From Methylophaga sp. (GTDB lineage Bacteria; Pseudomonadota; Gammaproteobacteria; Nitrosococcales; Methylophagaceae), in NCBI GenBank assembly GCA_002733105.1, contig NVUI01000003.1, positions 37,031 through 69,047 on the forward strand: a stretch of DNA of 32,017 bases, in the 5' to 3' direction. Under the pieces are notes generated by a model. The model was given only the letters and a program-made list of their open reading frames with translations, ran no database searches and was not told where the DNA came from. The position numbers were made by a program, and so were the translations under genes. Shown here piece after piece: positions 4,511 through 26,271 of the stretch (positions are counted from its first letter, which is position 1; each line of letters begins with the position of its first letter).

Positions 4511-5383
4511 TTAGGCTTTCAAAACTAATAGACTGCCAGCGACCATTACCAAGCAAGCGGTAAGACGCCGGGCAAAATGTTTTTCATTAAATATGCGATA
4601 GCCAAGAAAGACTTGTAATACCATGCCGAGCTGAAATAGGGCTAGAGAGTAGGCAATTAATAATTTGGAGAAAACAATCATGGTCAGATATTGCATTAAA
4701 AAGATCAGAATACCAAGATACAGAAAATGATAGATATGATTTTTCGCTTGTGGGTAGTCTTTAGTAAAATTATCTTTTAGGAAGATCGTATGAGCAAGGA
4801 TTGCTAAAGGAAAGCCAATTAAACACCAAAGCACAGTGGTAGATAGAGCGCCACCAGAAATAACGGCATTTTTTAGAGGTAAGGTACCAATAGAGAACAG
4901 TAATATTGATAAGAAGCGGTATTGCACTCCACGGTCTGTGAATAACTGTAATAGGCGATTAGTATTGGTATGTATTGCTGGTGGAAATAGAAAGTAACTG
5001 CCAACAACAATAATACCAATACCCATAAAGCCTTGTAGACTAGGAATTTCATCAATAAAGATCATCGCCAGTAACATAGAGATAACGATTTTATAGGCAT
5101 TCAATGGCCCAAAAATAGAGAGGTCCGTTTTTGATAGAGACATCACTAAAAATAACGTGCCTGCCATATCAAGTAAGGCTGCAAAGAAGATGTTTACCCA
5201 GAAAGTAGTTGATAGAGACGAAAAATCAAAGGCCCATAGCAGTGGAAAGCAAATGATGCTCAACACCAAATAAGATGCCATAACAATAAAGAAAGGGTGT
5301 AACCCTTGATGAGCTAATTTTTTCTGGAATACGTTGGCAAAAGATGAGAATAATAAACGCCCAAAAACAATAAGAATTTCCAA
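4511..5383 (-). CDS. EamA/DMT-family inner-membrane transporter
   Basis: A 290-aa protein with about ten hydrophobic segments arranged as two repeats, the drug/metabolite transporter (EamA) pattern. The first half has the conserved region around residues 85-115 (L-N-A-Y-K-I-V-I-S-M-L then an acidic I-D-E-I-P), where EamA proteins carry their L-x-P-x-(V)-x-x-L-x-E-P-like segment. The substrate is unknown. It starts 41 bases after the CHASE-GGDEF gene and is probably read through from it. A decayed copy of its first ~60 codons is present at 11047-11222. Confidence 0.83.
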   Translation of the reverse strand: MEILIVFGRLLFSSFANVFQKKLAHQGLHPFFIVMASYLVLSIICFPLLWAFDFSSLSTTFWVNIFFAALLDMAGTLFLVMSLSKTDLSIFGPLNAYKIVISMLLAMIFIDEIPSLQGFMGIGIIVVGSYFLFPPAIHTNTNRLLQLFTDRGVQYRFLSILLFSIGTLPLKNAVISGGALSTTVLWCLIGFPLAILAHTIFLKDNFTKDYPQAKNHIYHFLYLGILIFLMQYLTMIVFSKLLIAYSLALFQLGMVLQVFLGYRIFNEKHFARRLTACLVMVAGSLLVLKA

Positions 5384-5424: not shown

Positions 5425-6990
5425 TTATAGTGAGCATACGGTATTTCTACCCGCCTTTTTAGCCTTATAAAGTGCTTTGTCGGCAAGTATAATAAGCTCT
5501 CTTACAGATGCTCCTTTTTTAGGAAATATCGTACCAAATCCGACACTGATAGTGACATGATTAGCTGTCTTCGAAGTGCTGTGGGGAATATGTAAATTTT
5601 CTATATTTTCCCGACAGAGCTCAGATAATATATAAGCATCACTGGTATTTGGCAGAATGATGGCAAATTCTTCACCACCATAACGGGTTGCTAGATCAGT
5701 GGTTCGACGAAGTGTACTATGTAGTTGATAAGCTATATCTTTTAGACAATGATCGCCAGCCAAATGACCATATGTATCATTGAACTGTTTGAAATAATCT
5801 ATATCAATCATAATAAGTGATATAGGCTGCTGCTCTCGAATAGAATGGGCCCATTCTTGTTCAAGATAAATATCAAAGTGGCGGCGGTTAGCAATGCCTG
5901 TTAAGCCATCTTGCATGGAAATTTTTTCGAGTTCTTGTTGGGCTTTTTTTAATTCAAAGGTTCTTTCTTCGACTGCTTTTTGAATAACTTCTGCATGATG
6001 AGCTATGAACAAAGAGTTAACAACACTGTAACTGACAATGATAAAACCTAACAAAAAGATAACAAGTGGTGTTGAGCTTCTACGTTCATAAATGTATCCC
6101 TTTGAAGGGGTCGCTAATATAGTCCATTGTCTTCCCCCAATGAGGTTGAGTTGTTTCATATAATGGATGGATGTATTGGTATTAGAAATATTTGAGACTT
6201 GTCGAGAGTGTAGAATTTTTGTGGGTACTGATGTTTCGTCAATCAGTGTTAAATTAATGCCTCGGATTGATGTGTTTAGGGTTGAGTTATTGATTAAATC
6301 ATCGATTTTGAATATACCTAAGGCAAACCCAGCTAATTGAGAATAACGCTTTTCAGCTGTTGTTGGCATGCCATGATAGATAGGAAGGAAGGCCAAAAAG
6401 GCTTGCTGAGTAATATTATCTTGCACTAAGGTAATGCTTGATGATGCTGTTAGGGATCCTGTTTCACGAGATTGTGTTAATGCTTTTAGACGTTCAGTAT
6501 TTGAAGCGAGGTCAAAGCCAAATGTAGGTTCATTTCCAGTTAAAGGTTCGATGTAATAAACTGGAAAATATTCGTTTCGCTGTTTTGCTCGAATGATCTT
6601 ACCCTGTGGATCACGTTCAGTGATTTCAAAATGTGGATATTGTTGCTGTCGTTCCAATTCTATCTTAGAACGTTCGATTTTATTTACTCTAGGAACCCAT
6701 TCAAGTGCTTGAATATTAGGGTACCGAGATAACACTTCTGTCGCAAAGCGGTTAAATTCACTGGCGGTAACATTGTCAGAGCTGTCATATAAGCCCTTAA
6801 TAGCATAGAGCGCTTCAAAATTGAGGCTGATTTCCTTTTCAATAGAAAATAATTGTGCATCTACATCGCTGTTAAACTCAGTATTTATGGCCTGAGATTC
6901 AGCAGTATAAAAAAACCATGCAAGTATGACTGATGAGGCTAAACCAAGGAGAAAGGTAATCGTTATTCTAAAATTAGAAAGCGGCTTCAT
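5425..6990 (-). CDS. CHASE-domain membrane diguanylate cyclase (GGDEF)
   Basis: A 521-aa inner-membrane protein. TM1 is at residues 9-28, a periplasmic CHASE sensor domain at about 40-300 (A-L-E-W-V-P-R-V and the Y-F-P-V-Y-Y-I-E-P segment are typical), and TM2 at about 308-332. A short coiled coil (335-358) leads to a GGDEF domain (about 360-521). The active-site loop is GGEEF (438-442), so diguanylate cyclase activity is expected. An RxxD inhibitory site (R429, D432) stands exactly five residues before it, so product inhibition by c-di-GMP is expected. Its ATG lies 17 bases inside the end of the upstream GGDEF-EAL gene, so the two are translationally coupled. CHASE ligands are unknown here. 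Confidence 0.93.
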   Translation of the reverse strand: MKPLSNFRITITFLLGLASSVILAWFFYTAESQAINTEFNSDVDAQLFSIEKEISLNFEALYAIKGLYDSSDNVTASEFNRFATEVLSRYPNIQALEWVPRVNKIERSKIELERQQQYPHFEITERDPQGKIIRAKQRNEYFPVYYIEPLTGNEPTFGFDLASNTERLKALTQSRETGSLTASSSITLVQDNITQQAFLAFLPIYHGMPTTAEKRYSQLAGFALGIFKIDDLINNSTLNTSIRGINLTLIDETSVPTKILHSRQVSNISNTNTSIHYMKQLNLIGGRQWTILATPSKGYIYERRSSTPLVIFLLGFIIVSYSVVNSLFIAHHAEVIQKAVEERTFELKKAQQELEKISMQDGLTGIANRRHFDIYLEQEWAHSIREQQPISLIMIDIDYFKQFNDTYGHLAGDHCLKDIAYQLHSTLRRTTDLATRYGGEEFAIILPNTSDAYILSELCRENIENLHIPHSTSKTANHVTISVGFGTIFPKKGASVRELIILADKALYKAKKAGRNTVCSL

Positions 6991-9900
6991 TTTTCTTTAA
7001 AATAATGTTCATATCTTCAAAGGCCCTTTGCACCTCAATTAGCCCTGTCTGGGCCACATCTATTTCGCCAGCTTGATAAATCATTAATAGATCTAAAGCC
7101 GATTGGTGCATAGTTTGATGAGAAGATTCAATTTGATCCATGAGGGTACTTGTAAACCATTGTTTTCGTTTCGCCCGTTTTATCCAATGTCCACAATGAC
7201 ATTTTGTTTGCGTCATAATGGGCCATGACTCAACGTCTTCGGGCGATGATTGAATGTTATTATGAAAAGCAGTAATCCATTGTGTGGAGACAAGTTTGAA
7301 TAATTTTATTCTTCGATCTTGAATGCTCTTTTTTTTGCTAGCATATGCTATCCATTCTAAATTGGGACTGTAATTTAGTAGCCATGGTTTAATATCATCA
7401 GCAGGCATTGGTCGAGCAATACCAAACCCTTGTGCTTGCTCACACCCCAAAGTGAGTAACATTAAACCATGCTCAGTTGTTTCTACACCTTCTGCTATGA
7501 CATTACGGTTAAATGAATGAGCTAAGCCAATCACACCCTTAATAAGGGTGTAATCATTAGGATCATCAAGTATGTCTTTGACAAAGCTGCGATCTATTTT
7601 AATCGTTTGGGCCGGTAAGTTTCTGAGGTGTGTAAGTGATGAATAGCCAGTGCCGAAATCATCTAAAGCAATGTTAACTCCCAGCGTGTGTCGGCAAGAT
7701 TTTACAATGTTACTAATGGTTGTCAGATCTCCTAGTGCACTACTTTCTAATATTTCTAGCTGAAAGTATTTAGACTTCACTTTAGGATATTTTGCTAAGG
7801 CTGTGTTGAGCTCATCATGGAATGTAGGAGACTGTAAATGGTGAGAAGAAATATTGACGCTGACTTCAAACATAATGTCTTGTTTACGCCATGTATTTAA
7901 TTGTGCTAGTGCTTCATTAATAACCCAATTACCCACTTGAATTTCAAGATCTGTATTTTCAATATCAGGTAAAAAGTCAAAAGGAGGCACTAGGCCTTTT
8001 TCAGGATGTTGCCAGCGAATAAGTGCCTCAGCGCCAAAAACGTCCCCTGTTTTCATATTAATTTTGGGTTGATAATAGAGACAAAACTCATTGTTTATTA
8101 AGGCTTGTTGTATTTCTTGTAGTCGAGATAATTTGTGTATCGTTTGTTGATCATCTAATGCATTGTATAGTCTATAATGATTTTTACCGGACAGCTTTGC
8201 TTGGTACATTGCTTGATCAGCATGGCGCAACAGTGTGTCTAGATCAGAATCATCCAGTGGGAACATAGTGATGCCTGTCGATGTACTAATTTTGTGAGAA
8301 TGACCATCAATGAGATAAGGTTGGGATAATGATGCATGAATGCGTTGTATCATTAATTCACAATGAGTAAATGACTCAATATCTCTTAATAGCAGCGTAA
8401 ACTCATCTCCACCCTGACGAGAAACAGTATCTTCCTCTCTAATATTAGCCTGAATACGTGCTGCGACTTCAATTAATAATTGATCGCCTGTGTCATGACC
8501 ATAACCATCATTAACCGGTTTGAAATTATCTAAATCTAGAAAACAAATAGCAAACATACTTTCATTGCGATTACTGTGTGCTATCGCTTGAGAAAATCGA
8601 TCGGCAAAGAGGGTACGGTTAGGCAATTGAGTGAGCACATCATAATGTGCTATTGATTCAAGTGTTTGTTGTTGCTGCTTACTTTCAGTAATGTCAGTAA
8701 ATAAAATGACATAATGTAGCGTTGTACCAGCATCATCTTTTAATAGCGATATAGTGTACAGAGCAGGAAAAGATTGACCATTTTTTTTACGATTCCACAC
8801 TTCACCTTGCCAATGACCTTGTTTATTGGTGATCTGCCAAATATCATCGTAGAATTCTGGACTGTGTTTGTCAGATCTGAATAGGTGACCATGTTGGCCA
8901 ATAATATCATCAAGGTTATAACCGGTAATATCGCTGAAAGCGGGGTTTACATCAATGATACGGGCATTAGCATCCGTAATAATAATCCCTTCATGAGTAT
9001 CACTAAATACGCGTGCTGAGAGCTGTAATTTTTCATCAGCTGCTCGGTTTTCAAGTTCAATACTTGCTCTGACAGCCAGACTCTTTAACAGGTCTTTGGT
9101 TTGCCTGTTTTCAGTCATCGGCCGATCATCCAGCATGGCAATAAGCCCTAGGACTTTGTTCTGTGTATTTTTAAGCGGCACTCCAATATAACTTTCTGCC
9201 TGCATTTCAACTATCATTTGATCTTTAGGAAATAGCTGTTGGATATTGCTTGGATAAAAACATGCACCTACCTGAGCAACATTTGCACATGGCGTATCTT
9301 TTAGCTCATAAGTTATATTGTCTATAAATTGACCATCTGCCCATAATGCTATGGTAGTTGCATGAGTATGGACAGCATTCACTATGGCAAGAAAGGCATA
9401 ACGCATATCATTAGAGAGGGCAAGTTGACGAACAATAGTTTTGAAAATATCATTTTCTGCCTGCGTGCCACTCTCAGCTAGTGCTTGTAATACCAACTCA
9501 TTACGTTTTCGGTGGGAAATATCCATTACCACCCCGACCATGAGTAGAGGGTTTTTATGGGGATCCCACTCAGCAATTTTGCAAGAGGCTCGGAGCCATA
9601 GCCATTTCCCCTCAGCAGTTTTTCTTCTGTACTCCATTACGATGGCTTCACCTGACTTAATACCCTGTTGAAATATTGCCATGGTTGCATTCATGTCATC
9701 TGGATGGAGGTTGTCTTTCCATGTTTGGATAGTAAATAAAGTTTCTTTATTATTAATATTTAATAATGTGTGATATTCATCACTTACGATAATATTTTCT
9801 GTTTGTACATTTATTTCAAACCAGGCTTGGTTAGCAGAGTGTAAGACTCGTTCAAGACGCCGTTGATTTATAGATAAATCAATGGATTGTTGCTGTACTT

Positions 9901-10579
9901 TTTGTTCTAAAACTTTTGCCCCACGGTAGATGCGTTGATTAACAACTAGATATATCGGACAGATAAATAATAGAAACAGGGTGGCTAGGGCTAGTATTTG
10001 ATATAGATGTTGATTTAATAGACCTTGGATCTGAGTAATAGAAAAATCGGCGACAGCTAAATAAAATGTACCATCTTCTGAAAATTGGGGAATGAAAATA
10101 CTGCGAAAGCTGCCCCATCGATCGGTATATTCTATAAACTGTTTTTTACCCGTTCTAAATATTTCAAACACCTGTGGATCAACATCTTCATAAAGATCGA
10201 AAAAGAAAGATAAGCCTTCACCAGATTGTCGTTCTTTTTCTGTCGCACTAGATGAAGTAAACAGGATCTTCCCATCATGTAAAATGAGCGTATAGATATA
10301 CACTATGTCGGTGCTATCAGCGAACTCAGATAGGGCAAGTAAATTTTGATAATCTTGCTGTCTGGTAAGATCATCTTTTTGCATGTCTTGATGGTGAAGG
10401 TTGTGGGGCAATAATAGAGGTGCAGTGAGTGCAGCCATTTCAAGTTGTTGATCTAAACCGGTATATAACTTCTTTTTTTCTTGAGAAAAACTGAAATAAG
10501 CAAAGCTAATCACTAAAAATATATAAATAGTGACAGCAATACAAATACTTTGTTTTAATGAAAGGTTTAAAAATGACAC
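6974..10579 (-). CDS. Hybrid sensor PAS-GAF-PAS-GGDEF-EAL protein with C-terminal CZB zinc-binding domain
   Basis: A 1201-aa membrane c-di-GMP enzyme. TM1 (12-32) and TM2 (192-214) flank a periplasmic sensor region. Then come a PAS/PAC (about 240-358), GAF (about 365-512) and second PAS (about 520-635), GGDEF (about 640-805) and EAL (about 820-1070) domains. GGDEF 723-727 is intact and has an I-site (R714, D717). The EAL motifs are intact: E-A-L 851-853, N909, E942, D973-D974, K994 and E1030, so both activities are possible. The C-terminus (about 1095-1201) matches a CZB domain, with C1127-x-x-G-x-W1132 and H1154-x3-H1158; H1106 may be the fourth ligand. CZB binds zinc in E. coli DgcZ. The start is GTG at 10579; no in-frame ATG lies upstream before a stop. 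It overlaps the CHASE-GGDEF gene. Confidence 0.93.
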   Translation of the reverse strand: MSFLNLSLKQSICIAVTIYIFLVISFAYFSFSQEKKKLYTGLDQQLEMAALTAPLLLPHNLHHQDMQKDDLTRQQDYQNLLALSEFADSTDIVYIYTLILHDGKILFTSSSATEKERQSGEGLSFFFDLYEDVDPQVFEIFRTGKKQFIEYTDRWGSFRSIFIPQFSEDGTFYLAVADFSITQIQGLLNQHLYQILALATLFLLFICPIYLVVNQRIYRGAKVLEQKVQQQSIDLSINQRRLERVLHSANQAWFEINVQTENIIVSDEYHTLLNINNKETLFTIQTWKDNLHPDDMNATMAIFQQGIKSGEAIVMEYRRKTAEGKWLWLRASCKIAEWDPHKNPLLMVGVVMDISHRKRNELVLQALAESGTQAENDIFKTIVRQLALSNDMRYAFLAIVNAVHTHATTIALWADGQFIDNITYELKDTPCANVAQVGACFYPSNIQQLFPKDQMIVEMQAESYIGVPLKNTQNKVLGLIAMLDDRPMTENRQTKDLLKSLAVRASIELENRAADEKLQLSARVFSDTHEGIIITDANARIIDVNPAFSDITGYNLDDIIGQHGHLFRSDKHSPEFYDDIWQITNKQGHWQGEVWNRKKNGQSFPALYTISLLKDDAGTTLHYVILFTDITESKQQQQTLESIAHYDVLTQLPNRTLFADRFSQAIAHSNRNESMFAICFLDLDNFKPVNDGYGHDTGDQLLIEVAARIQANIREEDTVSRQGGDEFTLLLRDIESFTHCELMIQRIHASLSQPYLIDGHSHKISTSTGITMFPLDDSDLDTLLRHADQAMYQAKLSGKNHYRLYNALDDQQTIHKLSRLQEIQQALINNEFCLYYQPKINMKTGDVFGAEALIRWQHPEKGLVPPFDFLPDIENTDLEIQVGNWVINEALAQLNTWRKQDIMFEVSVNISSHHLQSPTFHDELNTALAKYPKVKSKYFQLEILESSALGDLTTISNIVKSCRHTLGVNIALDDFGTGYSSLTHLRNLPAQTIKIDRSFVKDILDDPNDYTLIKGVIGLAHSFNRNVIAEGVETTEHGLMLLTLGCEQAQGFGIARPMPADDIKPWLLNYSPNLEWIAYASKKKSIQDRRIKLFKLVSTQWITAFHNNIQSSPEDVESWPIMTQTKCHCGHWIKRAKRKQWFTSTLMDQIESSHQTMHQSALDLLMIYQAGEIDVAQTGLIEVQRAFEDMNIILKKNEAAF

Positions 10580-10677: not shown

Positions 10678-10883
10678 TTATGTATCAGCTTTATCATTTT
10701 CGACAATTTCTTTCGTGGCTAAAACCAATTTTTCATTATTTGGAACAATAATACCGACTATTTTAATTCATTTAACTGAGTAGCAGACAACGCCTTATTA
10801 TGTAGCCACAGCGTCACTTTATCTTCTCATACAAGATTGTTAGCTTTCCTAAGGCCTGCTTGGAGAAAGATGAGATAAATCAC
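10678..10883 (-). pseudogene. Decayed paralogue of the small unknown protein encoded at 26012-26263
   Basis: From GTG (10883-10881) the frame reads V-I-Y-L-I-F-L-Q-A-G-L, in-frame TGA, then E-D-K-V-T-L-W-L-H-N-K-A-L-S and a TAG at 10760-10758. After a frame change it continues I-V-G-I-I-V-P-N-N-E-K-L-V-L and stops at TAA (10680-10678). This lines up end to end with the intact 83-aa protein (M-I-Y-L-I-F-T-A-E-G-F; E-N-K-A-V-L-W-V-N-D-N-V-L-T; V-N-I-L). It lies 7 bases after the decayed dctP copy, against 8 bases in the intact locus, so the pair was duplicated together. Two stops and a frameshift show it is dead. Confidence 0.8.
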
Positions 10884-10890
10884 TGAAATG

Positions 10891-11047
10891 TTATTTTTTA
10901 ATCGCTAAATAAGCATTTTTAGAAATATCTGATCATGCATCATCTTGCTAGCGAAAAGCTTGGTGGGCTTCATAGACCCGTTCAAATTCTGGCATCTTGG
11001 CGGCTTCTTCAGCCAATATTTTATTCGTGAGCATTTTTAGTTTTGCT
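10891..11047 (-). pseudogene. Decayed 3' end of a TRAP substrate-binding protein (dctP) gene copy
   Basis: The minus strand encodes a degraded copy of the last ~50 residues of the DctP protein at 26272-27375: K-L-K-M-L-T-N-K-I-L-A-E-E-A-A-K-M-P-E-F, then V-Y-E-A-H-Q-A-F-R, TAG (10950-10948), TGA (10935-10933), then S-D-I-S-K-N-A-Y-L-A-I-K-K and a stop at 10893-10891. Similarity at both DNA and protein level is evident by eye. The two premature stops are in the homologous frame. Upstream, similarity to dctP ends abruptly at about 11047, where similarity to the EamA gene begins. Confidence 0.85.
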
Positions 11048-11222
11048 TAGAGAAAAGTGATTAAACATCCAAAGAAGCAGCACACAAATAATCGTTAAAA
11101 CGACATACGATGCCTTCCCAATAAAAAAGAGATGGAGCCCGTAATGAGCTAATTTTTTTGAGAAATATGGGCAAAAGATACCAATAATAATTAGTCTAAA
11201 CCGACAAGTAATTGCAGTTAAT
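11047..11222 (-). pseudogene. Decayed 5' fragment of an EamA transporter gene copy
   Basis: The minus strand encodes R-L-I-I-I-G-I-F-C-P-Y-F then SKKLAHYGLHLFFI and A-S-Y-V-V-L-T-I-I-C, matching the N-terminus of the intact EamA protein at 4511-5383 (QKKLAHQGLHPFFIVMASY). About 55-60 codons are represented. The match then breaks at about 11047 into dctP-like sequence. No complete transporter can be made from it, so it is a fragment fused by deletion or rearrangement to the dctP remnant. Confidence 0.82.
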
Positions 11223-11231
11223 GCTATTTTA

Positions 11232-11705
11232 CTAGGGGGACGTTTGATATTCATTATGTTCATCAATTTGATATTGATTAAACACACCATAGTGACCATC
11301 ATGGTCAAATTGGAAAACGATAAAATTATCCTTACGTGTTCCTACTTCCATTCCCGGCGTACCCACAGGCATTTTAGGTACAGATAAGCCTGCAATATCT
11401 GGTTTTTCAGCTAATAAGCGTCGGATGTCATTTGCAGGGACATGGCCCTCAATAATATAACCTTCAATGATAGCCGTATGGCAAGATGTCATTTGTTTAG
11501 GTAGTTTAACGGCTTCTTTCACCTGAGTCATATTGGTGGTTAGCAAATCAACAACGTTAAATTTATTTTCTTCCAAATGGTTGATCCATTTGTGACAACA
11601 ATTGCACGTCGGGTTGCGATACACTTTGATTTCAGGACTGCTTAATGTGGTGGCAAAAGCATTAAGAGTAAAGATCTGAAAGAGGATTAAAAATAGTATA
11701 TTCAT
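11232..11705 (-). CDS. DUF411 periplasmic metal-binding protein
   Basis: A 157-aa protein with a signal peptide (MNILFLILFQIFTLNAFA, residues 1-18). It carries the DUF411 core: V-Y-R-N-P-T-C34-N-C36-C37-x-K-W, then M-T-S-C-H-T-A, G-Y-I-I-E-G-H-V-P, and G-L-S-V-P-x-M-P-x-G-(T/S)-P-G-M-E. DUF411 proteins are periplasmic, usually lie near copper-handling genes, and are thought to bind copper through the Cys-rich motif; this is family knowledge, not shown here. Its ATG overlaps by four bases the terminal TGA of the degraded gene upstream, which suggests they once formed a coupled pair. It is the only intact gene in the 10.6-12.1 kb decay zone. Confidence 0.85.
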   Translation of the reverse strand: MNILFLILFQIFTLNAFATTLSSPEIKVYRNPTCNCCHKWINHLEENKFNVVDLLTTNMTQVKEAVKLPKQMTSCHTAIIEGYIIEGHVPANDIRRLLAEKPDIAGLSVPKMPVGTPGMEVGTRKDNFIVFQFDHDGHYGVFNQYQIDEHNEYQTSP

Positions 11706-12088
11706 AAGATATTTAAAGAGTACATGTTTAGTTCTAAGATGTAATAGGTATTATCATCGCTTATTTTAAGTGCTTCAAGTCCTGCTGTTGCTTCATCAAT
11801 TTCACCAGAAGGGTGCTTTTTAACTAGTTTACTCGTCATAGAAAATAATGCATCAGCTGCATGTTTTAAATCTTTTAGTCATGTGGCTACAGGTTTTTCT
11901 TGCTCAAAACGAGCTAACCATTGCTCTAAATGATATTACACAAAATATGGATCGATATTTTTTTGGATAGTTAAGGTATTAGTAACATGATTGAACCAAT
12001 GTTCAGCTATTCATTGTAGCAATATTAAACTAGGGGCATCAGAACCGTCTTTACCCTCTAGGCCTTCAGTCGAGTATCTCCAGCGAAA
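11702..12088 (-). pseudogene. Gene remnant with three in-frame stops, possibly a CZB-type helical domain
   Basis: One minus-strand frame stays coherent for about 128 codons but is interrupted by TGA (12013), TAA (11938) and TGA (11881) before ending at TGA (11704-11702). The text includes A-E-H-W-F-N-H-V-T-N-T-L, Y-H-L-E-Q-W-L-A-R-F and H-P-S-G-E-I-D-E-A-T-A-G-L. This resembles the CZB tail of the 1201-aa c-di-GMP protein (C-H-C-G-H-W-I-K-R; Q-A-G-E-I-D-V-A-Q-T-G-L). It may be the end of a lost chemoreceptor or c-di-GMP gene. The zinc Cys is not conserved (Tyr). No frameshift is needed, so decay by point mutation looks recent. The family call is tentative; the pseudogene call is firm. Confidence 0.6.
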
Positions 12089-12140
12089 TGACTTGGAAAT
12101 ATTATTGATTATGTTACATATCTGTAGAACGGAGTAGGGC

Positions 12141-12623
12141 TTAGCCTGACGTCGATTTTTTACGTATTGATTTCATAGCCTTAAAATATTCTCTGAATTT
12201 AGTCTCCGAATATCCATTACCTTCTTCTAAGTAACCAGAGGTTATGGAATTCAGGACTTCGCCGTTTGCATCAGTAACGACTAGAAATGGATAGCCTACA
12301 AATTCAGGCAATTGATCTAGAAATTCTTCATTATAATTTTCTTCGCTGACATTGACTTTCACAACCACAAAATTATTATTAAGTAAGGCTTTTATTTCAG
12401 AAGATTGATTAAAAAACCGCTCAAGTTTATGGCACCAGCTACACCAGTTACCACCGACTTGGATTAGAATAAATTTATCGTTTTTTTTAGCCTCAATTTG
12501 GGCAAGGTCAAAGTCTTTAAAAGGGTCACGTTCAGGGTCATATGGCCCGTTAACAGCGTTTGCTGTCAACGTAAAACCTTGCAAACTTATGAGAAGCCCT
12601 AACATTATTAACAATCTATTCAT
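12141..12623 (-). CDS. Periplasmic thioredoxin-like protein at the end of the sox cluster (SoxW-like position)
   Basis: A 160-aa protein with a signal peptide (about residues 1-23, ending T-A-N-A). The thioredoxin fold has active site W-C61-S-W-C64-H-K, followed by F-V-V-V-K-V-N-V and the cis-Pro segment G-Y-P-F-L-V-V-T-D. The C-S-W-C-H site is of the DUF255/thioredoxin_7 type rather than classical CGPC. Many Sox clusters contain a periplasmic thioredoxin (SoxW or SoxS) that keeps the SoxY and SoxC/A cysteines reduced; that role is inferred from position. It is the last gene of the cluster, about 98 bases after soxB. No soxV/CcdA partner is in the window. Confidence 0.82.
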   Translation of the reverse strand: MNRLLIMLGLLISLQGFTLTANAVNGPYDPERDPFKDFDLAQIEAKKNDKFILIQVGGNWCSWCHKLERFFNQSSEIKALLNNNFVVVKVNVSEENYNEEFLDQLPEFVGYPFLVVTDANGEVLNSITSGYLEEGNGYSETKFREYFKAMKSIRKKSTSG

Positions 12624-12721
12624 CTGTATTTACTTTGAAGCCAACACCGTTATATATGATACCCAAAACAGCTAAACACCAAGGAAGAAAACAAGCTAAA
12701 TTTAAATGTAACCGATTGATT

Positions 12722-14470
12722 CTAGTTTATTATTCCTTTATTCCCTGCCATATTAATTAATTTTGGAAGATTCATTTTTTCTATCGAGAACTGCTTTTTA
12801 TCACGTAAGTATTCAGCAACTACATCCCATATTGGATCACCGGTCGCTGGTGAATTCACAGTGGCCCAACCGGCGACTTTATAGGTTTTGCGTGCTTCTA
12901 TTTTTGTGCCATCATCCAGCCTCATTTCAGAAATTCTCTGACCAAACTGTCCCATGGGATCAATGGTATAGTCCATGCCTCCAACTCTGACCATATCGCC
13001 TCCTTGACGGTAAAAGGGATCAAGGTTGAAGATATTGTCACTCACATCCTCCAAAATGGCTTTGATTTGCTCACCAGTCATTTCTCTAGTGTAAGTTTCA
13101 GGATAGGTAATACTGGTCTGATCCATCACATGTTCCATGGTTATGTCTTGGCCTGGTAGCACGGTTGTACCCCAGCGGAAACCTGGTGACAGAGAAATAT
13201 CGGCACCATTGATTTTACGAAGTGCATCACAGATCACTTGATCAAAGGTACCGTTAAAGTTACCGCGACGGTAAAGAAGATCTTCAGATACTGCTAATTT
13301 TTCAGTCAAAATGCTTTGATAAGGTGCCCGTACATCATCAATAAAACTTGCCATTTCAGCATCAGGGGAGATAAAGTTGGAAAATACCGGCAATAACGTA
13401 TAACGGTAATCTTTAACATGGCCTTTGCCCAACTCAAGATCTAATACTGCCAAATATTTACCATTTGAGCCGGCATTCGTCACTAAGGTTTTACCCGTAG
13501 CATTTGCAACATGAATCGGTTTTGGCACGCCATCATGGGTATGTCCACCTAAGATCACATCCAAGCCAGTCACTGTTGCCGCTAATTTGAGATCAACATC
13601 CATACCATTATGTGACAGTAAGATCACCGCATCAGGTTGTTCTGAACCACGGATCTTATCAACAAGCTCTTGTAATTCTTGTGCCTGAATCCCAAACGTC
13701 CAGTCTGGAATAAAACGACTAGGATTAGCAATAGGGGTGTAAGGAAAAGCTTGGCCAATTATAGCAACACGGTGTTCGCCCATTTCTTTGATGCTATAAG
13801 GCTTGAATGCATAACCCTCATCTTCATCATAAGCGGCCGCGCCATCAAATAAGGCATCTTCATTTACTTTGACATTATGAGCCAGAAATTCACCGTTAAA
13901 CTCAGCAATATTCTCTAAAACTTCATGATCTTGATAAGTAAATTCAAAATGCCCTGTCATCACATCAACACCTAACAAATTTGATGCTTCAACCATATCT
14001 TTACCTCGGGTCCAATAGGCAGTAGCCGAACCCTGCCATGTATCACCACCATCAAGAAGGAGTGTACGGCTGTCACCACCATATGATTGGCGTAATTGTT
14101 TGACTAGGGTACTAAGATAAGCATAGCCCCCAACTTTACCGTATTTATGTGCATATTTGGTAAACTGAAGCGGGGTAAAAGCATGAGCTTGAATAGTACC
14201 CGCCGCAATATTGAAAAAGTCTAAAAAGTTGTCACCCACAATATGTGGTGGTTTACCACTCTCTTGGTTAATACCAATATTAACGCTAGGTTCACGAAAA
14301 TAAACGGGCAATAATTGCGCATGGCTGTCCGTCATATGAAGCAAACGTGCATTACCAAAATTAGCTAGATTATACATTTCTTCTGGCTTTGCAGTAGAAA
14401 ATGCAGTTCTAGGGAAAAGATTAGCAGCACTTGCTATTGCCAATATTTGAGTAAATTCACGACGATTCAT
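12722..14470 (-). CDS. soxB: Thiosulfohydrolase SoxB
   Basis: SoxB hydrolyses the terminal sulfonate of SoxY-bound cysteine S-thiosulfonate, releasing sulfate in the periplasm; it is a dimanganese enzyme of the 5'-nucleotidase/calcineurin fold. At 582 aa it has normal length. The metal motifs are present: D48-S-H50, G-G-D143-T-W-Q-G, G-H-F-E-F, S-H287-N-G-M-D and G-G-H310-T-H312-D-G. The N-terminus MNRREFTQILAIASAANLFP is a Tat-type signal (R3-R4), expected for a cofactor-loaded enzyme. It lies downstream of the rhodanese gene, separated from it by a strong intrinsic terminator; a TATAAT on the minus strand (14499-14494) just past the U-tract could start a soxB-specific transcript. Confidence 0.96.
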   Translation of the reverse strand: MNRREFTQILAIASAANLFPRTAFSTAKPEEMYNLANFGNARLLHMTDSHAQLLPVYFREPSVNIGINQESGKPPHIVGDNFLDFFNIAAGTIQAHAFTPLQFTKYAHKYGKVGGYAYLSTLVKQLRQSYGGDSRTLLLDGGDTWQGSATAYWTRGKDMVEASNLLGVDVMTGHFEFTYQDHEVLENIAEFNGEFLAHNVKVNEDALFDGAAAYDEDEGYAFKPYSIKEMGEHRVAIIGQAFPYTPIANPSRFIPDWTFGIQAQELQELVDKIRGSEQPDAVILLSHNGMDVDLKLAATVTGLDVILGGHTHDGVPKPIHVANATGKTLVTNAGSNGKYLAVLDLELGKGHVKDYRYTLLPVFSNFISPDAEMASFIDDVRAPYQSILTEKLAVSEDLLYRRGNFNGTFDQVICDALRKINGADISLSPGFRWGTTVLPGQDITMEHVMDQTSITYPETYTREMTGEQIKAILEDVSDNIFNLDPFYRQGGDMVRVGGMDYTIDPMGQFGQRISEMRLDDGTKIEARKTYKVAGWATVNSPATGDPIWDVVAEYLRDKKQFSIEKMNLPKLINMAGNKGIIN

Positions 14471-14496
14471 AATTAACCATTTTCTATTTAAATATT

Positions 14497-14545
14497 ATAA
14501 AAAAACTGCTGTTAATTAGAGTCTAGACTTTAATTAACAGCAGTT
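14497..14545 (-). terminator. Strong intrinsic terminator between the rhodanese gene and soxB
   Basis: A perfect 15-bp inverted repeat (14504-14518 with 14531-14545) encloses a further palindrome, AGTCTAGACT (14520-14529), so nearly all 42 bases can pair. On the minus strand the hairpin is followed at once by a run of seven T (complement of the A-run 14499-14505). Orientation fits termination of transcripts from soxC to the rhodanese gene. It lies 27 bases upstream of the soxB ATG and would reduce read-through into soxB. Confidence 0.85.
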
Positions 14546-14575
14546 GATCGAGCAATAATTTTATTTTTAGAAGCT

Positions 14576-15226
14576 TTACTTGCCTTTAACCGTTGTTAAA
14601 CCCAATGCTTCCCAGTTTTGCATACCACCGCGATACCATTTGATTTTATCTGCTGGATAACCAAATTTTAATAACATCAAAATATTTCTAGGGGATTGGC
14701 CACACCACATACCATTACAAAACATCACTAATGTTTTAGCTTTTGAATAATCCCAAAGACCTTCCTGCTCGATCACACCAAACTGTTCTTGTAAGATGTC
14801 AGCAATATCAAATGGGCTTGCACCTTTGGCAATCGACAGTTGAGTCCAAGGAAGGTTAATCGAACCAGGTATTGTGCCTTTGGCAACCCAATCTGGTGTA
14901 CGTGAATCAATGATCAGAATAGAGTCAACACCAGCACTTTTCATTTTGACGTAATGCAGCATTTCTAACTCACCCAAGGTTTCTACACCTTCAGCTAATT
15001 TGATTGGCCGAATACAAAAGGGTGGACACTTTCTTGACGTTTTTGCATAGTCAGGATTAATGGTATTGCTAGTATCCTGATGTCTCATAATCGTCACGAC
15101 TTCACCATTATGCATCACATCTAAAGACGCAAGATCTGGTGTTATCTGAACATCAAGCGCTGATGCAGATCCAGCCATGAAAAGTGACAAAAAAAATGCA
15201 GCTGTTTTGAGACCTGTTATTTTCAT
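14576..15226 (-). CDS. Periplasmic rhodanese-domain sulfurtransferase in the sox cluster
   Basis: A 216-aa protein with a signal peptide (residues 1-23, ending S-A-S-A). An N-terminal extension (about 24-95) contains three Cys-rich residues in R-K-C-P-P-F-C. A single rhodanese domain (about 98-213) follows, with I-I-D-S-R-T, G-T-I-P-G-S-I-N-L-P and the catalytic-loop Cys in F-C-N-G-M-W-C-G-Q-S. The loop is longer than the six-residue loop of thiosulfate sulfurtransferases and has a second Cys, as seen in rhodanese proteins of sox clusters. It probably moves sulfane sulfur in the periplasm; the partner is inferred from context. GGAG precedes the ATG. It is followed by a terminator. Confidence 0.87.
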   Translation of the reverse strand: MKITGLKTAAFFLSLFMAGSASALDVQITPDLASLDVMHNGEVVTIMRHQDTSNTINPDYAKTSRKCPPFCIRPIKLAEGVETLGELEMLHYVKMKSAGVDSILIIDSRTPDWVAKGTIPGSINLPWTQLSIAKGASPFDIADILQEQFGVIEQEGLWDYSKAKTLVMFCNGMWCGQSPRNILMLLKFGYPADKIKWYRGGMQNWEALGLTTVKGK

Positions 15227-15253
15227 CTATCTTTCTCCGTTAGTTATTGAAGG

Positions 15254-15688
15254 TTAATCATCGATTGTAGGAATAAGCATCTGCCAATGGGCATCGGCAT
15301 AATGAGACTGTTTTATCGCCAGCAATGACTGGTTTTTTACTTCTTGATATAAAGCGCGTGCCACATCATGATCACCTGCTTTATATGCAGCAAGACCTTT
15401 ATCCTGTAATGGCTTGGTTACACTCCATTCAAAGCCTAGTCGATCAGCTTGAATTCGAGCTCGACCGGCTTCATACATAAGCTGTTGTAAGTCAACTTTC
15501 GTAGCGACGACTTGTGGCTCAACAATATTTTTCTCAACACTCACTGATGATGGAACTACTATTTGTTGTTGGCTTTCAATCGGGGCGATAGTTGGCTGTG
15601 CAAGTGTTTCAGGCTCTGAGTCAGAACAGGCTGTCAGAAATAATGCTGCTGACAATACAGTGAGACCTAAACTAGTTATTTTTGTCAT
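15254..15688 (-). CDS. soxK: SoxK / SoxXA-binding protein, lipoprotein form
   Basis: A 144-aa protein. The N-terminus has a lipoprotein signal with lipobox L-T-A-C21, then a low-complexity linker (to about residue 62). The helical domain (about 65-144) has the pattern of SoxXA-binding proteins (SoxK/SAXB): A-x-x-A-D-R-L-G-F-E-W-x-x-T-K-P-L, then A-x-x-A-Y-K-A-G-D-H-D-x-A-x-A-L-Y, then a repeat of small Ala-rich helices with A-D-A-H-W. In SoxXAK complexes this subunit helps SoxXA act on SoxYZ. The position directly after soxA (4-base gap) supports the call. The lipid anchor would tether the complex to a membrane. AAGGAAA precedes the ATG. Recognised from pattern rather than alignment. Confidence 0.72.
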   Translation of the reverse strand: MTKITSLGLTVLSAALFLTACSDSEPETLAQPTIAPIESQQQIVVPSSVSVEKNIVEPQVVATKVDLQQLMYEAGRARIQADRLGFEWSVTKPLQDKGLAAYKAGDHDVARALYQEVKNQSLLAIKQSHYADAHWQMLIPTIDD

Positions 15689-15691
15689 GAT

Positions 15692-16528
15692 TTATTTCCT
15701 TGATCCAGGACCATTTATGGCAAGACCATTACTCATATGAGTGTGAAAATATTCCAAATTCCGATAGGTTACACTTTGTAATTTGAAAGGTTTTGCACGA
15801 ATTTGTTTATTACAACCGGCGTATCGACGCTGCAAGGTACCAATATCATCCCATTTAAAACGAAAAACAGGAAAATGACTGGTATGGCCCAATGCAGGAC
15901 TAAGAATATCGGCACGTAATTGGTTACCGGCATTATTAACATGGCAGGTGGCACACGCCATATTTAACTGACCACGTCGGGCATAAAACATTTTTTTACC
16001 TGCTTCATAAGCAGCCTGTGCCCTTGGATCATTGGGCACGGTGACGTTAATTAACTTATCACGTGAAGTAAATGCCATATAAGCAGAAACGTAGGCAAGT
16101 TCACCTTTACCATAAGCTAGTGCTTGTTCACCATGAGTTGTTCGACACTGATTAATAGCGAGTTCAAGGGTGACAATTTGTCCCGTTTCTTGATCAAATT
16201 TAGGGTAATCTTGTTTTATGCCAATACCACCATTTGGAAAACAGTCGGCATAGCTTTTACCATTTGCAAACGCAGTCTCGAATAGTTCCTGCCCTTGATC
16301 TACACCATCTTCATAAGGGGGGAACTCTTCAATGTCTTCCCATTGTAAACGAGCATTTTCATCGATGGCATAGACGCCATTAATATAATCTTCTAATGCA
16401 ACGTCGGGTAGACGGTCATCAAAATATTCCCGTATCATCTCGTTGTCAGATTGTGGATCCGCATAACTTGACGCGTTAACGGCTAAAGCTCCAAATAATA
16501 CGATAGATAAATAAGTTAAACCTTTCAT
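15692..16528 (-). CDS. soxA: SoxA, cytochrome c subunit of SoxXA (monohaem type)
   Basis: SoxXA oxidatively joins thiosulfate to the SoxY carrier Cys in the periplasm. SoxA here is 278 aa with a signal peptide (about 1-23). The only haem-binding motif is C192-A-T-C195-H196 in the C-terminal cytochrome domain. The N-terminal domain has no CXXCH but has C96 and C128, which match the disulfide that replaces the first haem in monohaem SoxA proteins. The active-site persulfide ligand is C239 in R-Y-A-G-C-N, followed by R-A-K-P-F. The mature protein starts about A-D-P-Q. AAGGAT precedes the ATG. It lies between soxZ (30-base gap) and soxK. Confidence 0.95.
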   Translation of the reverse strand: MKGLTYLSIVLFGALAVNASSYADPQSDNEMIREYFDDRLPDVALEDYINGVYAIDENARLQWEDIEEFPPYEDGVDQGQELFETAFANGKSYADCFPNGGIGIKQDYPKFDQETGQIVTLELAINQCRTTHGEQALAYGKGELAYVSAYMAFTSRDKLINVTVPNDPRAQAAYEAGKKMFYARRGQLNMACATCHVNNAGNQLRADILSPALGHTSHFPVFRFKWDDIGTLQRRYAGCNKQIRAKPFKLQSVTYRNLEYFHTHMSNGLAINGPGSRK

Positions 16529-16558
16529 AATTGAAATCCTTGAACGCAGCAGAATGTC

Positions 16559-16861
16559 TTACTTTATAACAGCTTCAACGGCTTTAGTTTCGCCGGTGTT
16601 ATCTACCCAAGTTAGTGATAATGTATCGCCTGATTGTCCACCTTTAAATGAAAAAGCGACATACGGGTTTTTTGATATAGCGCGTCCGAAATTGGCTTCG
16701 AAAACTACTTTATCTTGATGTTTACAGATAAGTTCTTGAATATATTTTGCCGGGATCAGTTCATCCGTTTTTTTATCCTTACGCATGCCAGTTTCCATTG
16801 GGTGCTTTGCAAGTACCTTAACGACAACCAACCCTTTTTTCATTTTTGCTTTGACTTTCAT
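16559..16861 (-). CDS. soxZ: SoxZ, SoxYZ carrier subunit
   Basis: A 100-aa protein of immunoglobulin-like fold that pairs with SoxY. Typical features are P-M-E-T-G near residues 21-25, I-P-A-K-Y-I-Q-E-L (about 36-44), F-x-A-x-F-G-R-A-I-S-K-N-P-Y (about 54-67), then F-x-F-x-G-x-x-G-D-x-L-x-L-x-W-x-D-N-x-G. There is no signal peptide, as usual for SoxZ, which is exported by hitchhiking with Tat-exported SoxY. GAGG precedes the ATG. It directly follows soxY (22-base gap). Confidence 0.95.
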   Translation of the reverse strand: MKVKAKMKKGLVVVKVLAKHPMETGMRKDKKTDELIPAKYIQELICKHQDKVVFEANFGRAISKNPYVAFSFKGGQSGDTLSLTWVDNTGETKAVEAVIK

Positions 16862-16883
16862 TTGTCTGACCTCAATATCTTAA

Positions 16884-17342
16884 TTAACCGCCACAGCCAC
16901 CGATGGTGACTTTAACTTCTTTTTCTGTTGTGTATAATTTGCCATCAGCTTCGACAACCGCTTTAACTATCATTGTTTCGCCTAATCTGATCCGCACAGA
17001 GATATTTGCTTCAGTGCCTTCTGGTATTTTGAAAGAAGCAGCTAAAGGCTGAGGATTCTTGCCGGCAAAGATACTTATTGTCCTGACATTAGGAATATCA
17101 GTTTTTACAGTAACTGGTACGACGGCCCCATTTTCTGCAATTTCAGGGATCTTGAATGTTATCCGATCATCGGTAATAAGCTCATTGCTACCATAAAGGT
17201 CATTTAAAGCTTCATCCATTGATTCGACATCAAATGCTTTTGACCATTTAGCCATTGCAAGCTTAGGCATAACAGTAACGGCGGCAACCATTGCTGTGAA
17301 TCCTAATACGCTTTTCAGTAGTAATCTTCGTTTATCTTGCAT
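16884..17342 (-). CDS. soxY: SoxY, thiosulfate carrier subunit
   Basis: A 152-aa protein with a twin-arginine signal (K-R-R-L-L-L-K-S, residues 4-11, then a hydrophobic stretch ending A-M-A about 31). The C-terminus is the swinging arm G-G-C150-G-G, whose Cys holds the sulfur substrate throughout the Sox cycle. The intact pentapeptide means a functional carrier is expected. The length is typical. AGGAG precedes the ATG. It sits between soxX and soxZ, the usual soxXYZA order. Confidence 0.96.
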   Translation of the reverse strand: MQDKRRLLLKSVLGFTAMVAAVTVMPKLAMAKWSKAFDVESMDEALNDLYGSNELITDDRITFKIPEIAENGAVVPVTVKTDIPNVRTISIFAGKNPQPLAASFKIPEGTEANISVRIRLGETMIVKAVVEADGKLYTTEKEVKVTIGGCGG

Positions 17343-17381
17343 TCTGTTTTCTCCTAGTTATCTCTTTATATGGGGTGGGTG

Positions 17382-17726
17382 TTATAGCGAATAGATATAG
17401 TCCACAACCTTATCGATTTCTTGTTCAGTCAACATTCTATGTCGTCCAAATGGAGGCATAGCAGTCAGCGGATTTTTTGTTGTTGCATCCCATATTTGGT
17501 CTCTAAGCTTTGACTTATCTGGGTACATCTTTTGCATCTGGCTTAGGGGAGGCCCCATTTTTCCAGGTAATTCACCATCATCTATGACATGGCACGCAAG
17601 ACAATTGCCTTTCTTTCTATCAAATGCAATTTCTTTACCTTCTGCAATCTGGTCTCCGGCTAGTGCATAAGGAAGCGCAATTGGAAATAGAAATACCACT
17701 GAGATAAGTTGTATTAACTTTTTCAT
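17382..17726 (-). CDS. soxX: SoxX, monohaem cytochrome c subunit of SoxXA
   Basis: A 114-aa protein with a signal peptide (about 1-23, ending A-L-A). One class I cytochrome c domain has C42-L-A-C45-H46, the K-M-G-P-P segment, and the distal Met ligand in M90-P-P-F-G. SoxX accepts electrons from SoxA during S-thiosulfonate formation and passes them to a small cytochrome. Assignment as SoxX rather than a generic cytochrome rests on the MPPFG motif and its place next to soxYZA. It follows soxD by 42 bases. Confidence 0.92.
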   Translation of the reverse strand: MKKLIQLISVVFLFPIALPYALAGDQIAEGKEIAFDRKKGNCLACHVIDDGELPGKMGPPLSQMQKMYPDKSKLRDQIWDATTKNPLTAMPPFGRHRMLTEQEIDKVVDYIYSL

Positions 17727-17768
17727 AATTTGACTTTACATCCTCTATAATTTATTAAGATCTTGAGT

Positions 17769-18710
17769 CTAGCGACTTTGGCTTACCATATATTCGACAG
17801 CAGCTACCAGGTCTTCTTCACTTAGGCTCGGGTTACCACCTTTTGCAGGCATCATTCCAGCATCGCCGGTAAAACCATTAGTTGCATGCTCTACAAGCAG
17901 CTCCATACCTTGTGCAATCCGATCTACCCAAAGCTTGTTATCACCAACTATAGGTGCGCCAGCCAAACCGGAGTCATGACACATAGCACAAGATTGTTCA
18001 TAAACCCCCATGCCTCGCTTAGTAGAGTCAACCTTATTTTCAGTTTCAGCAGCTGTTTGTTCTAAGTGTTTTAGTGGCGTAATACCTTTAATCGCTGATG
18101 TAACCTTAATTTTGCTCGGATCTTTACAGTTTTCCATGCAGGCAATATTGATAACATCAGGACGATTATCGATAAAGAAACCATCTTTGTTAGGCATCTC
18201 TATTTCGGCAAAGTTATCTCGGCTTAAAACAAAGTCTTCATCGTCGATTATTTCATTTAGATAAAGTACATAAGCTGTCAATGCGTAGGTTTCATTATCA
18301 GTTAATGACTGAGGTGCAGTAAAAGGCATGGCACGATGAATGTAGTCCCAAAGGGTACTGGCATAAGGCCAATAACTACCCACCGTTTTTTCAGGACGAT
18401 CTTCTGTCAACGTTCCTATGCCGCCGGCCAGTGCTGGCCAACGGCCTTCACCTTCACCGAAATCACCGTGGCATACAGCGCATTTCGCATCAAAGATGCC
18501 TTCACCCTGTGATACTGAGCCGCTACCTACAGGCAGACCTTGACCATCGGGACGGATATCGATGTCCCAGCCGGCAATTTCTTCTTCGGTGGCAATTCGG
18601 CCTAGGCCATAATAACCTGGCTCTTTGGCAAATGCAGAAGAGGCGATAAACCCTTGTGCAGCAAAGATTAAAACCAATACATGAAAATATTTTTTAACCC
18701 AATTGTACAT
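17769..18710 (-). CDS. soxD: SoxD, dihaem cytochrome c subunit of the SoxCD sulfur dehydrogenase
   Basis: SoxD takes electrons from the SoxC molybdenum site during oxidation of SoxY-bound sulfane sulfur. From the chosen ATG (18710) the protein has 313 aa, with a signal peptide M-Y-N-W-V-K-K then a hydrophobic run ending A-F-A (about residue 28). Two haem sites are present: C77-A-V-C-H81 and C241-A-M-C-H245. The conserved S-Y-W-P-Y-A-S-T-L-W-D-Y-I-x-R-A-M-P segment is typical of SoxD. The frame is open back to 18887, but that part has no signal peptide and lies in soxC. The chosen ATG overlaps soxC by 17 bases, fitting coupled translation. Confidence 0.93.
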   Translation of the reverse strand: MYNWVKKYFHVLVLIFAAQGFIASSAFAKEPGYYGLGRIATEEEIAGWDIDIRPDGQGLPVGSGSVSQGEGIFDAKCAVCHGDFGEGEGRWPALAGGIGTLTEDRPEKTVGSYWPYASTLWDYIHRAMPFTAPQSLTDNETYALTAYVLYLNEIIDDEDFVLSRDNFAEIEMPNKDGFFIDNRPDVINIACMENCKDPSKIKVTSAIKGITPLKHLEQTAAETENKVDSTKRGMGVYEQSCAMCHDSGLAGAPIVGDNKLWVDRIAQGMELLVEHATNGFTGDAGMMPAKGGNPSLSEEDLVAAVEYMVSQSR

Positions 18711-20013
18711 TGCTAACAGTCCCATCTTTATCAAGCATCCAGGTATGAATAGAGTTTTTGTGGTAAATCGAGTTACTGCCTCGGGCTTCTCGTAATTGTG
18801 AAAGCGTTGGCTGTACATAGCCTGTTTCATCAATGGCACGACTTTGCAGCAGTAATGGTTCACCTTGCCAATTAATTTCCATGCCAAAACGAGTTATCGC
18901 TTTAGATAACACCAGGCCTTTTAATTTAGCTGTTTGCCAACTTACACCACCATCAAGTGACACATCGACACGTTTTATTTTGCCTCGGCCAGACCAAGCA
19001 ATCCCCTCAAGATGATGAATACCTCTATGCATCATTGGTTTTTCGGGGCAAGGTGAAGTAATGACAGAATTTGTTTCTTGGACAAAACTAAACTTACGTG
19101 CCGTTCCATCTGGCATGAGATCGGTATATTTAGATGTTTCTTCACGTTGATACCAAGGTTTATCACCAATTTCTAGGCGACGTAACCATTTGATACTGGT
19201 ATTACCTTCCCAACCTGGATTGAATAATCGTACTGGATAACCTTGTTCAGGTCTGAGCATCTCGCCATTTTGAGCATACACAACCAGAGTGTCATCCAAG
19301 GCTTTTTCAAGTGGAATACTACGTGACATGCCTGCACCATCAGCACCTTCTGCTAACAGCCATTTAGCCCCTTTTTGAATGCCCACTTCATCTAGAAGCG
19401 TCGAAAGTTTTACACCAGTCCACTCACAACAGCTCAACATACCATGGGTAAATTGTAATGCTTCCATTTGGGTGCCACGCCATTCCATACCACCATTAGC
19501 AGGACATTCTAAGAAATTAATCACTGATTCTGATGGAAAGCTCATTAGCTGATCCATGGTTAGAATCAATGGCCGATCAACCATGCCATTAATAATAATA
19601 CGATGATCATCAGGGTTAACTTCTGGCACGCCAGCGTGATAGCGTTCAAATACTAGGCCACTTGGGGTAATAATGCCTTTCATTTCATGTAATGGCGTCA
19701 TACTGATAGAGGAGATTGAATCTGCCGTTAACCAGTCGACGGTACGTCGAACAACGTCTGACTCATGTTTCGAGGGATGCCCATAAGGCACAGAAACAAC
19801 ACCACGACCTAGCTTGCGACTCCATACAGGTACATTTGGCGGCAATGATTCTTTTCCTGCCATTGCCGTACCAACTGTTGCCGCTAAGGCAGATCCTACG
19901 GATAACTTCAAGCCATTTAATAAGAAATCACGTCGTTTTTTTTGTGGCAACTCAGCTGCTTCTGCCTTGATTTCTTTAAGTAAATCTGTTGTATTTTCAG
20001 ATAATCTTTTCAC
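18694..20013 (-). CDS. soxC: SoxC, molybdenum subunit of sulfur (sulfite) dehydrogenase SoxCD
   Basis: A 439-aa member of the sulfite oxidase family. A long n-region (1-23) precedes a Tat motif K-K-R27-R28-D-F-L and a hydrophobic stretch to about residue 52, consistent with folded export with molybdopterin. The Moco-ligating Cys is C170 in F-L-E-C-P-A-N-G-G. The C-terminal dimerisation domain contains G-I-A-W-S-G-R-G-K-I-K-R-V-D-V-S-x-D-G-G. SoxCD makes thiosulfate oxidation complete (no sulfur globule build-up). It is the first gene of the minus-strand sox run, so the operon promoter must lie in 20014-20202. Confidence 0.95.
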   Translation of the reverse strand: MKRLSENTTDLLKEIKAEAAELPQKKRRDFLLNGLKLSVGSALAATVGTAMAGKESLPPNVPVWSRKLGRGVVSVPYGHPSKHESDVVRRTVDWLTADSISSISMTPLHEMKGIITPSGLVFERYHAGVPEVNPDDHRIIINGMVDRPLILTMDQLMSFPSESVINFLECPANGGMEWRGTQMEALQFTHGMLSCCEWTGVKLSTLLDEVGIQKGAKWLLAEGADGAGMSRSIPLEKALDDTLVVYAQNGEMLRPEQGYPVRLFNPGWEGNTSIKWLRRLEIGDKPWYQREETSKYTDLMPDGTARKFSFVQETNSVITSPCPEKPMMHRGIHHLEGIAWSGRGKIKRVDVSLDGGVSWQTAKLKGLVLSKAITRFGMEINWQGEPLLLQSRAIDETGYVQPTLSQLREARGSNSIYHKNSIHTWMLDKDGTVSNVQLG

Positions 20014-20202
20014 TATCGACCTATATTTCTAGATAAAAATAATTGCTTTAGATTTTCATATAACTATTTAATATATACATATAACCAATTAGTATATAAT
20101 ATATGCACCTAACAATATTTACAAGTATTTATGTAGGTGAAAACACCTGTACTTTCAATTATTTTTGAGTGACCTGAAATTAATAAGGCAAAAAATGACG
20201 CT
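20014..20202. promoter_or_regulatory. Divergent promoter region between soxC and the SoxH-like gene
   Basis: A 189-bp, strongly AT-rich region that must contain the promoters of the sox run (leftward) and the MBL-fold gene (rightward). Several TATAAT-like strings occur on both strands around 20058-20104, so I do not choose one pair of promoters. The most marked element is the tandem 21-bp repeat listed separately. A ribosome binding site for the rightward gene is poor (AAGG about 16 bases before its ATG). Confidence 0.6.
20057..20098. repeat. Tandem 21-bp direct repeat, candidate operator
   Basis: Copy 1 (20057-20077) and copy 2 (20078-20098) each begin CATATAAC and end TATATA, and agree at 18 of 21 positions. 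They abut exactly, so the unit repeats every 21 bp, two turns of B-DNA. Each copy is flanked by short ATATA/TATAT inverted ends. This layout suits two protein dimers binding side by side on one face. Chance similarity in AT-rich DNA is possible. Confidence 0.55.
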
Positions 20203-21710: not shown

Positions 21711-21740
21711 ATAAAAAACAACTCCAATCTATCAGTTGTT
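21711..21740 (-). terminator. Intrinsic terminator of the MFS transporter gene
   Basis: Aacaact (21717-21723) pairs with agttgtt (21734-21740) across a 10-base loop. On the minus strand the stem is followed by TTTTTTATAATC. It overlaps the stop codon of the MFS gene (21741-21739), so it would end that transcript. The stem is short (7 bp). Confidence 0.55.
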
Positions 21741-22914: not shown

Positions 22915-23081
22915 AATAACTACTCGCCAGCCAGTTTCGATGGGAAAATTCGCTAGCTTACCCTATTAGGAGCTATATAAAAATCTGCCATACTGACTTC
23001 CTGCTATCAACAAATGCCAAATCGAAGCAAACTCATTAGAGAGGTGATAATACATAAGGTCAGATTAATATCGTCTGTTAA

Positions 23082-23714: not shown

Positions 23715-23843
23715 TTTCTACCTTCAATTACTCACGAATACATAATATTTTAAATATGCAGGGCTATTTTTAGCAATCCACGATCACAGCATTTATAACG
23801 AGACTGGTTTAGGTAATTAACCGTATTGTGATTTCATACCTTT

Positions 23844-23886
23844 AATATTCCTCAAGGTATAGCCTCGCTACACCTTGAGGAATATT
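23844..23886. repeat. Large perfect hairpin downstream of the PPOX-family gene
   Basis: Aatattcctcaaggt (23844-23858) and its perfect complement (23872-23886) form a 15-bp stem, extended after one mismatch by tagc/gcta with a CTC loop. It sits 39 bases past the stop at 23925 on the minus strand. It lacks a following T-run on either strand, so it is either an atypical terminator or a structural repeat. It is the only such copy noticed in the window. Confidence 0.6.
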
Positions 23887-23924
23887 CTTATAACTCTCAA
23901 TCTAATTTTGTTAAATATCGCACC

Positions 23925-26263: not shown

Positions 26264-26271
26264 TAGCGATA

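Follow-up and report, generated by a model that had tools for sequence, protein, structure and literature searches.

A decayed EamA–dctP joint in a Methylophaga genome as the probable relic of an allelic tandem duplication

The window, that is, the whole stretch of 32,017 nucleotides from Methylophaga sp. analyzed here, carries on its minus strand two series of genes separated by a short decayed stretch, which we refer to as the fossil. The left unit reads dctP-small-MBL2-PPOX-TPMT-MFS-MBL1-soxC..soxB-Trx-DUF411-EamA′, and the right unit, after the joint, reads dctP′-small′-PAS/GGDEF/EAL-CHASE/GGDEF-EamA-SMP30, where primes mark dead pieces. At the left end lie an intact dctP (26272-27375) and a small gene (26012-26263), together occupying 26012-27375. 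They are followed further on by the sulfur-oxidation (sox) block (12141-21156), consisting of Trx, SoxB, rhodanese, SoxA, SoxZ, SoxY, SoxX, SoxD, SoxC, and MBL1, which is found in the same order and place in only one relative, G016. Of the intact genes in the left unit, DUF411 (11232-11705), a native neighbor of EamA, comes last. The accessory genes of the right unit, which are signaling genes, begin with a PAS/GGDEF/EAL gene (6974-10579), which adjoins the small gene in G014, G018, G020, and G008, and continue with a CHASE/GGDEF gene (5425-6990), which adjoins EamA in G020, G003, G010, G012, and G013. The right end is formed by an intact and apparently mosaic EamA (4511-5383). The outer copies of both genes that meet at the joint are thus complete.

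The fossil consists of three pieces on the minus strand, all of them broken. EamA′ (11228-11040) is the dead 5′ end of a G016-type EamA, 59 codons from the coding start to the seam, in its native place directly downstream of DUF411; dctP′ (11047-10891) comprises the last 51 codons of dctP including the stop codon, with 83–84% identity to the DctP of the window; and small′ (10883 to approximately 10657) is a dead copy of the small gene that can be aligned down to its stop. When the fossil is compared with the window by blastn, dctP′ and the start of small′ align with 26246-26428 (82.5% over 183 bp, E = 3e-48) and EamA′ with 5250-5356 (73% over 107 bp, E = 8e-11), while tblastn recovers EamA codons 15–60 (E = 1e-12), DctP codons 317–367 (E = 7e-21), and codons 1–41 of the small gene (E = 5e-7). 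The matches of all three pieces are far beyond chance. They bear out a preliminary description, made from the sequence alone, in which the stretch was read as fragments of three genes, duplicated and decayed, each having an intact homologue elsewhere in the window; the nucleotide alignment to the two source loci that it had proposed as a check gave significant matches at both, and these loci do lie approximately 6 and 15 kb away. Outside them, a search of the source genome with the fossil returned only a 38-bp match, and hence no other parent. In-frame stops had been noted in the last two pieces, and they are indeed there: dctP′ contains a TAG and a TGA at Q and W codons of the intact copy, and small′ contains several stops and a frame-breaking deletion. 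The EamA piece had been taken as open, but it is dead as well, since its start codon is gone (CTG, where G016 has GTG), an in-frame TAA occurs at codon 9, and one base is deleted near codon 21.

The native arrangement can be read from 26 relatives of the same genus, in which the order is DEAD2-trx-uvrD-dctP-(small)-accessory genes-EamA-(SMP30)-DEAD1-glgA. In all relatives whose contigs cover both dctP and EamA, the two genes share a strand and dctP lies upstream (in G024 they sit on separate contigs), and the interval between them holds variable accessory genes only. Four relatives have none (G019, G023, G011, and G017), six have DUF411 (G002, G005, G015, G021, G041, and G043), four have CHASE/GGDEF (G003, G010, G012, and G013), and ten have PAS/GGDEF/EAL with or without DUF411 or CHASE/GGDEF (G020, G014, G018, G008, G009, G001, G007, G006, G004, and G022). 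G016 alone has a PAS fragment, a sox block, and DUF411 between dctP and EamA, its locus spanning two contigs that meet inside soxA, and its DUF411 is directly followed by an intact EamA, in the very position that EamA′ occupies in the window. The order at the joint in the window is the reverse of the native one, with EamA′ preceding dctP′ on the same strand, as expected where a tandem duplication, or an unequal crossover between two versions of the locus, brings the last gene of unit 1 up against the first of unit 2. An intact EamA-dctP pair in the order of the fossil, which the preliminary description had suggested looking for, was seen in no relative, and the joint itself was not found in the 28 other genomes of the genus that were searched and is known from one assembly. 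The proposal that a dctP-small unit was placed beside or into an EamA copy and then lost its middle is not supported: given the native order dctP-small-...-EamA, a junction of an EamA 5′ part with a dctP 3′ part is what a joint of two tandem versions of the locus would look like, so no lost middle is needed.

The two units have different affinities. Third-position identity to G016 is 64–90% for the genes from small and sox through DUF411 (71% for dctP), with DUF411 itself reaching 87% at third positions and 92% over its DNA, compared to 45–58% for the flanking glgA, DEAD1, SMP30, UvrD, and DEAD2 genes and 73% for the flanking Trx, which is a short, conserved gene. Together with rpoB (81.4%) and gyrB (78.6%), by which G016 is not the closest relative overall, this difference suggests that the sox unit moved between the lineages of the window and of G016. 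The left edge of the G016-like block falls inside dctP, where MaxChi places a break at 27117 (79.0% versus 89.8% identity, p = 0.0003); in a sliding comparison the identity is G016-like from the small gene to approximately 27117 and at background level beyond. The right edge of the sox unit is the fossil.

Within the fossil, the pieces are short (150–230 bp), and their relationships to the intact genes of the window are not uniform. EamA′ is 81–83% identical to G016 EamA with the DUF411-EamA spacer included and 64% identical to the EamA of the window; in the tree it is the sister of G016 EamA (support 96/85), and a clade with the EamA of the window is rejected (AU p = 0.025). For small′, a sister relationship to the window's own small gene is likewise rejected (AU p = 0.0024), and the nearest sequences by identity are those of G014, G008, G018, and G020, all of which have the PAS version of the locus. 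In contrast to these two, dctP′ groups with the dctP of the window and of G016 (99/96; 14 of 16 diagnostic sites). Contrary to what had been supposed, the fossil is not made up entirely of copies of intact genes in the window, given that EamA′ and small′ are not sister to their counterparts there; of the three, only dctP′ is nearest to its own counterpart. The two units would then represent different alleles, or one of them may have been replaced. The intact EamA itself appears heterogeneous, in that its body (alignment columns 250–690) is the sister of G016 (100/99) and its 5′ and 3′ ends, judged by segment identities, are not especially G016-like. For the 5′ part, a single clade of the window, G016, and fossil sequences is not rejected (p = 0.245), and the best single break found by MaxChi on EamA is at 816, with none best near column 225. 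A mosaic EamA is thus moderately supported by these comparisons, and its 5′ part weakly so.

The seam (11039-11047, minus strand) is resolved by a three-way alignment, in which the crossing point reads TCTAAGCCAAACTTTC in G016 EamA, TTTTAGCCAAACTAAA in the dctP of the window, and TCTAAGCAAAACTAAA in the fossil. At 11047-11039, G016 EamA and the window's dctP share a 9-bp microhomology, AGCCAAACT, deduced from these two present-day sequences; the fossil, with one mismatch, reads AGCAAAACT. This 9-mer is one of only four shared 9-bp runs, the longest between the two genes, and a random joint would fall in such a run at 4.1e-5 of position pairs. The differences between EamA′ and G016 EamA are spread evenly over the codon positions (9/12/12, a pattern of neutral decay, compared to 7/3/20 for the functional pair G005 and G016), so EamA′ appears to have been dead for a long time. 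Since its raw divergence from G016 (19%) exceeds the third-position divergence of DUF411 from G016 (13%), EamA′ probably ceased to function early in the period since the copies in G016 and the window split, by what is a rough dating. The differences of dctP′ are not evenly spread (9/2/13), and dctP′ may for this reason be a diverged allele rather than a plain copy.

The pieces and their decay, the native order, the two types of unit in relatives, the microhomology, and the differing ancestries are all observed, and we consider it probable that the locus uvrD-[dctP-small-accessory genes-EamA] underwent a tandem (allelic) duplication and that the fossil is what decay has left of its novel joint. 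Unequal recombination guided by microhomology would have joined EamA codon 59 of one version to dctP codon 317 of a second at AGCCAAACT; we infer that this single recombination made the joint, and we infer the order of events as well. One chromosome would then have carried two tandem units, a left one of the G016 type (sox) and a right one of the G020/G014 type (PAS/CHASE). The outer dctP and the outer EamA would have stayed whole, while the inner halves, which the joint had truncated and which were no longer needed, would have decayed. In the sequence of steps that we prefer, a sox-type locus was presumably exchanged with the G016 lineage, the exchanged segment ending in dctP near 27117 and in the 3′ part of EamA; a tandem duplication, or a one-sided illegitimate insertion at the 9-mer, would have followed; and the middle of the right unit would have been, or have become by homologous exchange, of the PAS/CHASE type. 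A duplication in a sox-type genome with later overwriting of one unit by the PAS type is favored by the own-like dctP′ and the G016-like body of the intact EamA, whereas entry of one unit from outside in one step is favored by its simplicity.

Such a one-step entry would make the same joint by homology-facilitated illegitimate recombination (HFIR) of one foreign fragment, with homology pairing at one end (in dctP or EamA) and the microhomology AGCCAAACT at the other, the unit being added beside the resident one. The joint and its microhomology fit this equally, the edges of the block lie in the homologous genes dctP and EamA, and the 9-bp joint is within the pattern of 3–10 bp segments at the illegitimate end that is described in PMC6382021, citing de Vries and Wackernagel 2002. 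However, a sox unit anchored at dctP 27117 predicts a dctP′ of the old resident type, and the dctP′ observed groups with the dctP of the window and of G016; a PAS unit anchored in EamA predicts a dctP′ unlike that of the window, unless it was converted later. We regard HFIR as a real possibility that falls short of being probable. The idea that a circular sox molecule integrated by a Campbell-type crossover in the 3′ end of dctP was rejected: it fits the joint, but neither the G016-like dctP up to 27117 nor the body of EamA.

Two simpler readings fare considerably worse. Were the fossil the product of a plain duplication of the present dctP-small and EamA genes within the genome, followed by deletion, the proximity of dctP′ to the window's own dctP would be expected, but the AU results for EamA′ and small′ go against it and the accessory genes differ between the two units, which makes it very unlikely. 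An assembly artefact, in which contigs of two strains were wrongly joined, deserves mention because the relatives, and probably the source genome too, are metagenome assemblies and because the joint is known from one contig. It is nevertheless very unlikely, since both sides of the joint are decayed, which wrongly joined living genes would not be; moreover, an overlap of 9 bp is far below the k-mer of an assembler, and independent genomes show the gene orders found to the left and to the right of the joint on the 192-kb contig.

The tandem joint that we favor shares several features with known systems. Like the join points of short-junction tandem duplications in bacterial gene duplication and amplification, it has units in direct order, a chimeric junction in which the 3′ gene of the first unit runs into the 5′ gene of the second, a microhomology where they meet, and intact outer copies. 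Here, however, the units differ in accessory genes and alleles, and the junction is old and has decayed; a literature search on tandem-duplication join points found nothing. HFIR during transformation similarly combines a homologous edge on one side with 3–10 bp of microhomology on the other and a net gain of DNA, and both kinds of edge, the homologous one in dctP at 27117 (p = 0.0003) and the 9-bp joint, are present here as read from the sequence. In the present case, however, there are two copies of dctP sequence, and the recipient need have lost little or no DNA; HFIR is a RecA-dependent process of natural transformation, which is not known in the source organism. Pseudogene remnants at recombination hot spots resemble the locus in having conserved flanks (here uvrD-dctP and EamA-DEAD box) around variable content, yet here two contents stand in tandem with a preserved seam.

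More tentatively, and with the chances somewhat against it, the dctP-EamA interval could be a genus-wide exchange site whose cassettes (sox, c-di-GMP genes) are usually swapped through homology of the flanking genes and occasionally stacked through microhomology joints. If so, a genome gains both cassettes, and stacking is directly documented by the fossil. The event would be of an ordinary kind, produced by known processes and preserved in unusual detail: seam, microhomology, and decay are all legible, as are the arrangements of the two parents, so that the fossil shows how a sox cluster came to stand alongside another accessory set, without replacing it, in a marine methylotroph lineage. No recombinase was recognized among the ORFs of the window read by eye, nor among the subset scanned with Pfam, and an Rfam scan of the window gave no element.

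Some further observations concern the individual genes. The small gene, encoding 83 aa, adjoins dctP in most of the genus and diverges fast; it has no Pfam or NCBIfam match, and no TRAP permease gene is visible near it and dctP. A sox cluster at the dctP-EamA locus occurs only in the source genome and G016; seven other members of the genus have soxB elsewhere, with 77–82% protein identity. The window has MFS, TPMT-like, PNPOx-like, and metallo-beta-lactamase genes (21739-25592) that separate the small gene from the sox block and occur in none of the fetched loci of relatives. In their place G016 has a truncated PAS/GGDEF gene (L053 5017-7092), which matches the N-terminal and GGDEF parts only and adjoins the sox block, suggesting that the arrival of sox cut this gene. 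Finally, the spacer between DUF411 and the thioredoxin-like gene (11706-12140), which has no Pfam match, contains one frame, ...GLEGKDGSDAPSLILLQ*IAEHWFNHVTNTL..., with three stops, and looks like another decayed coding stretch; its counterpart in G016 is a related, shorter spacer of 230 bp.
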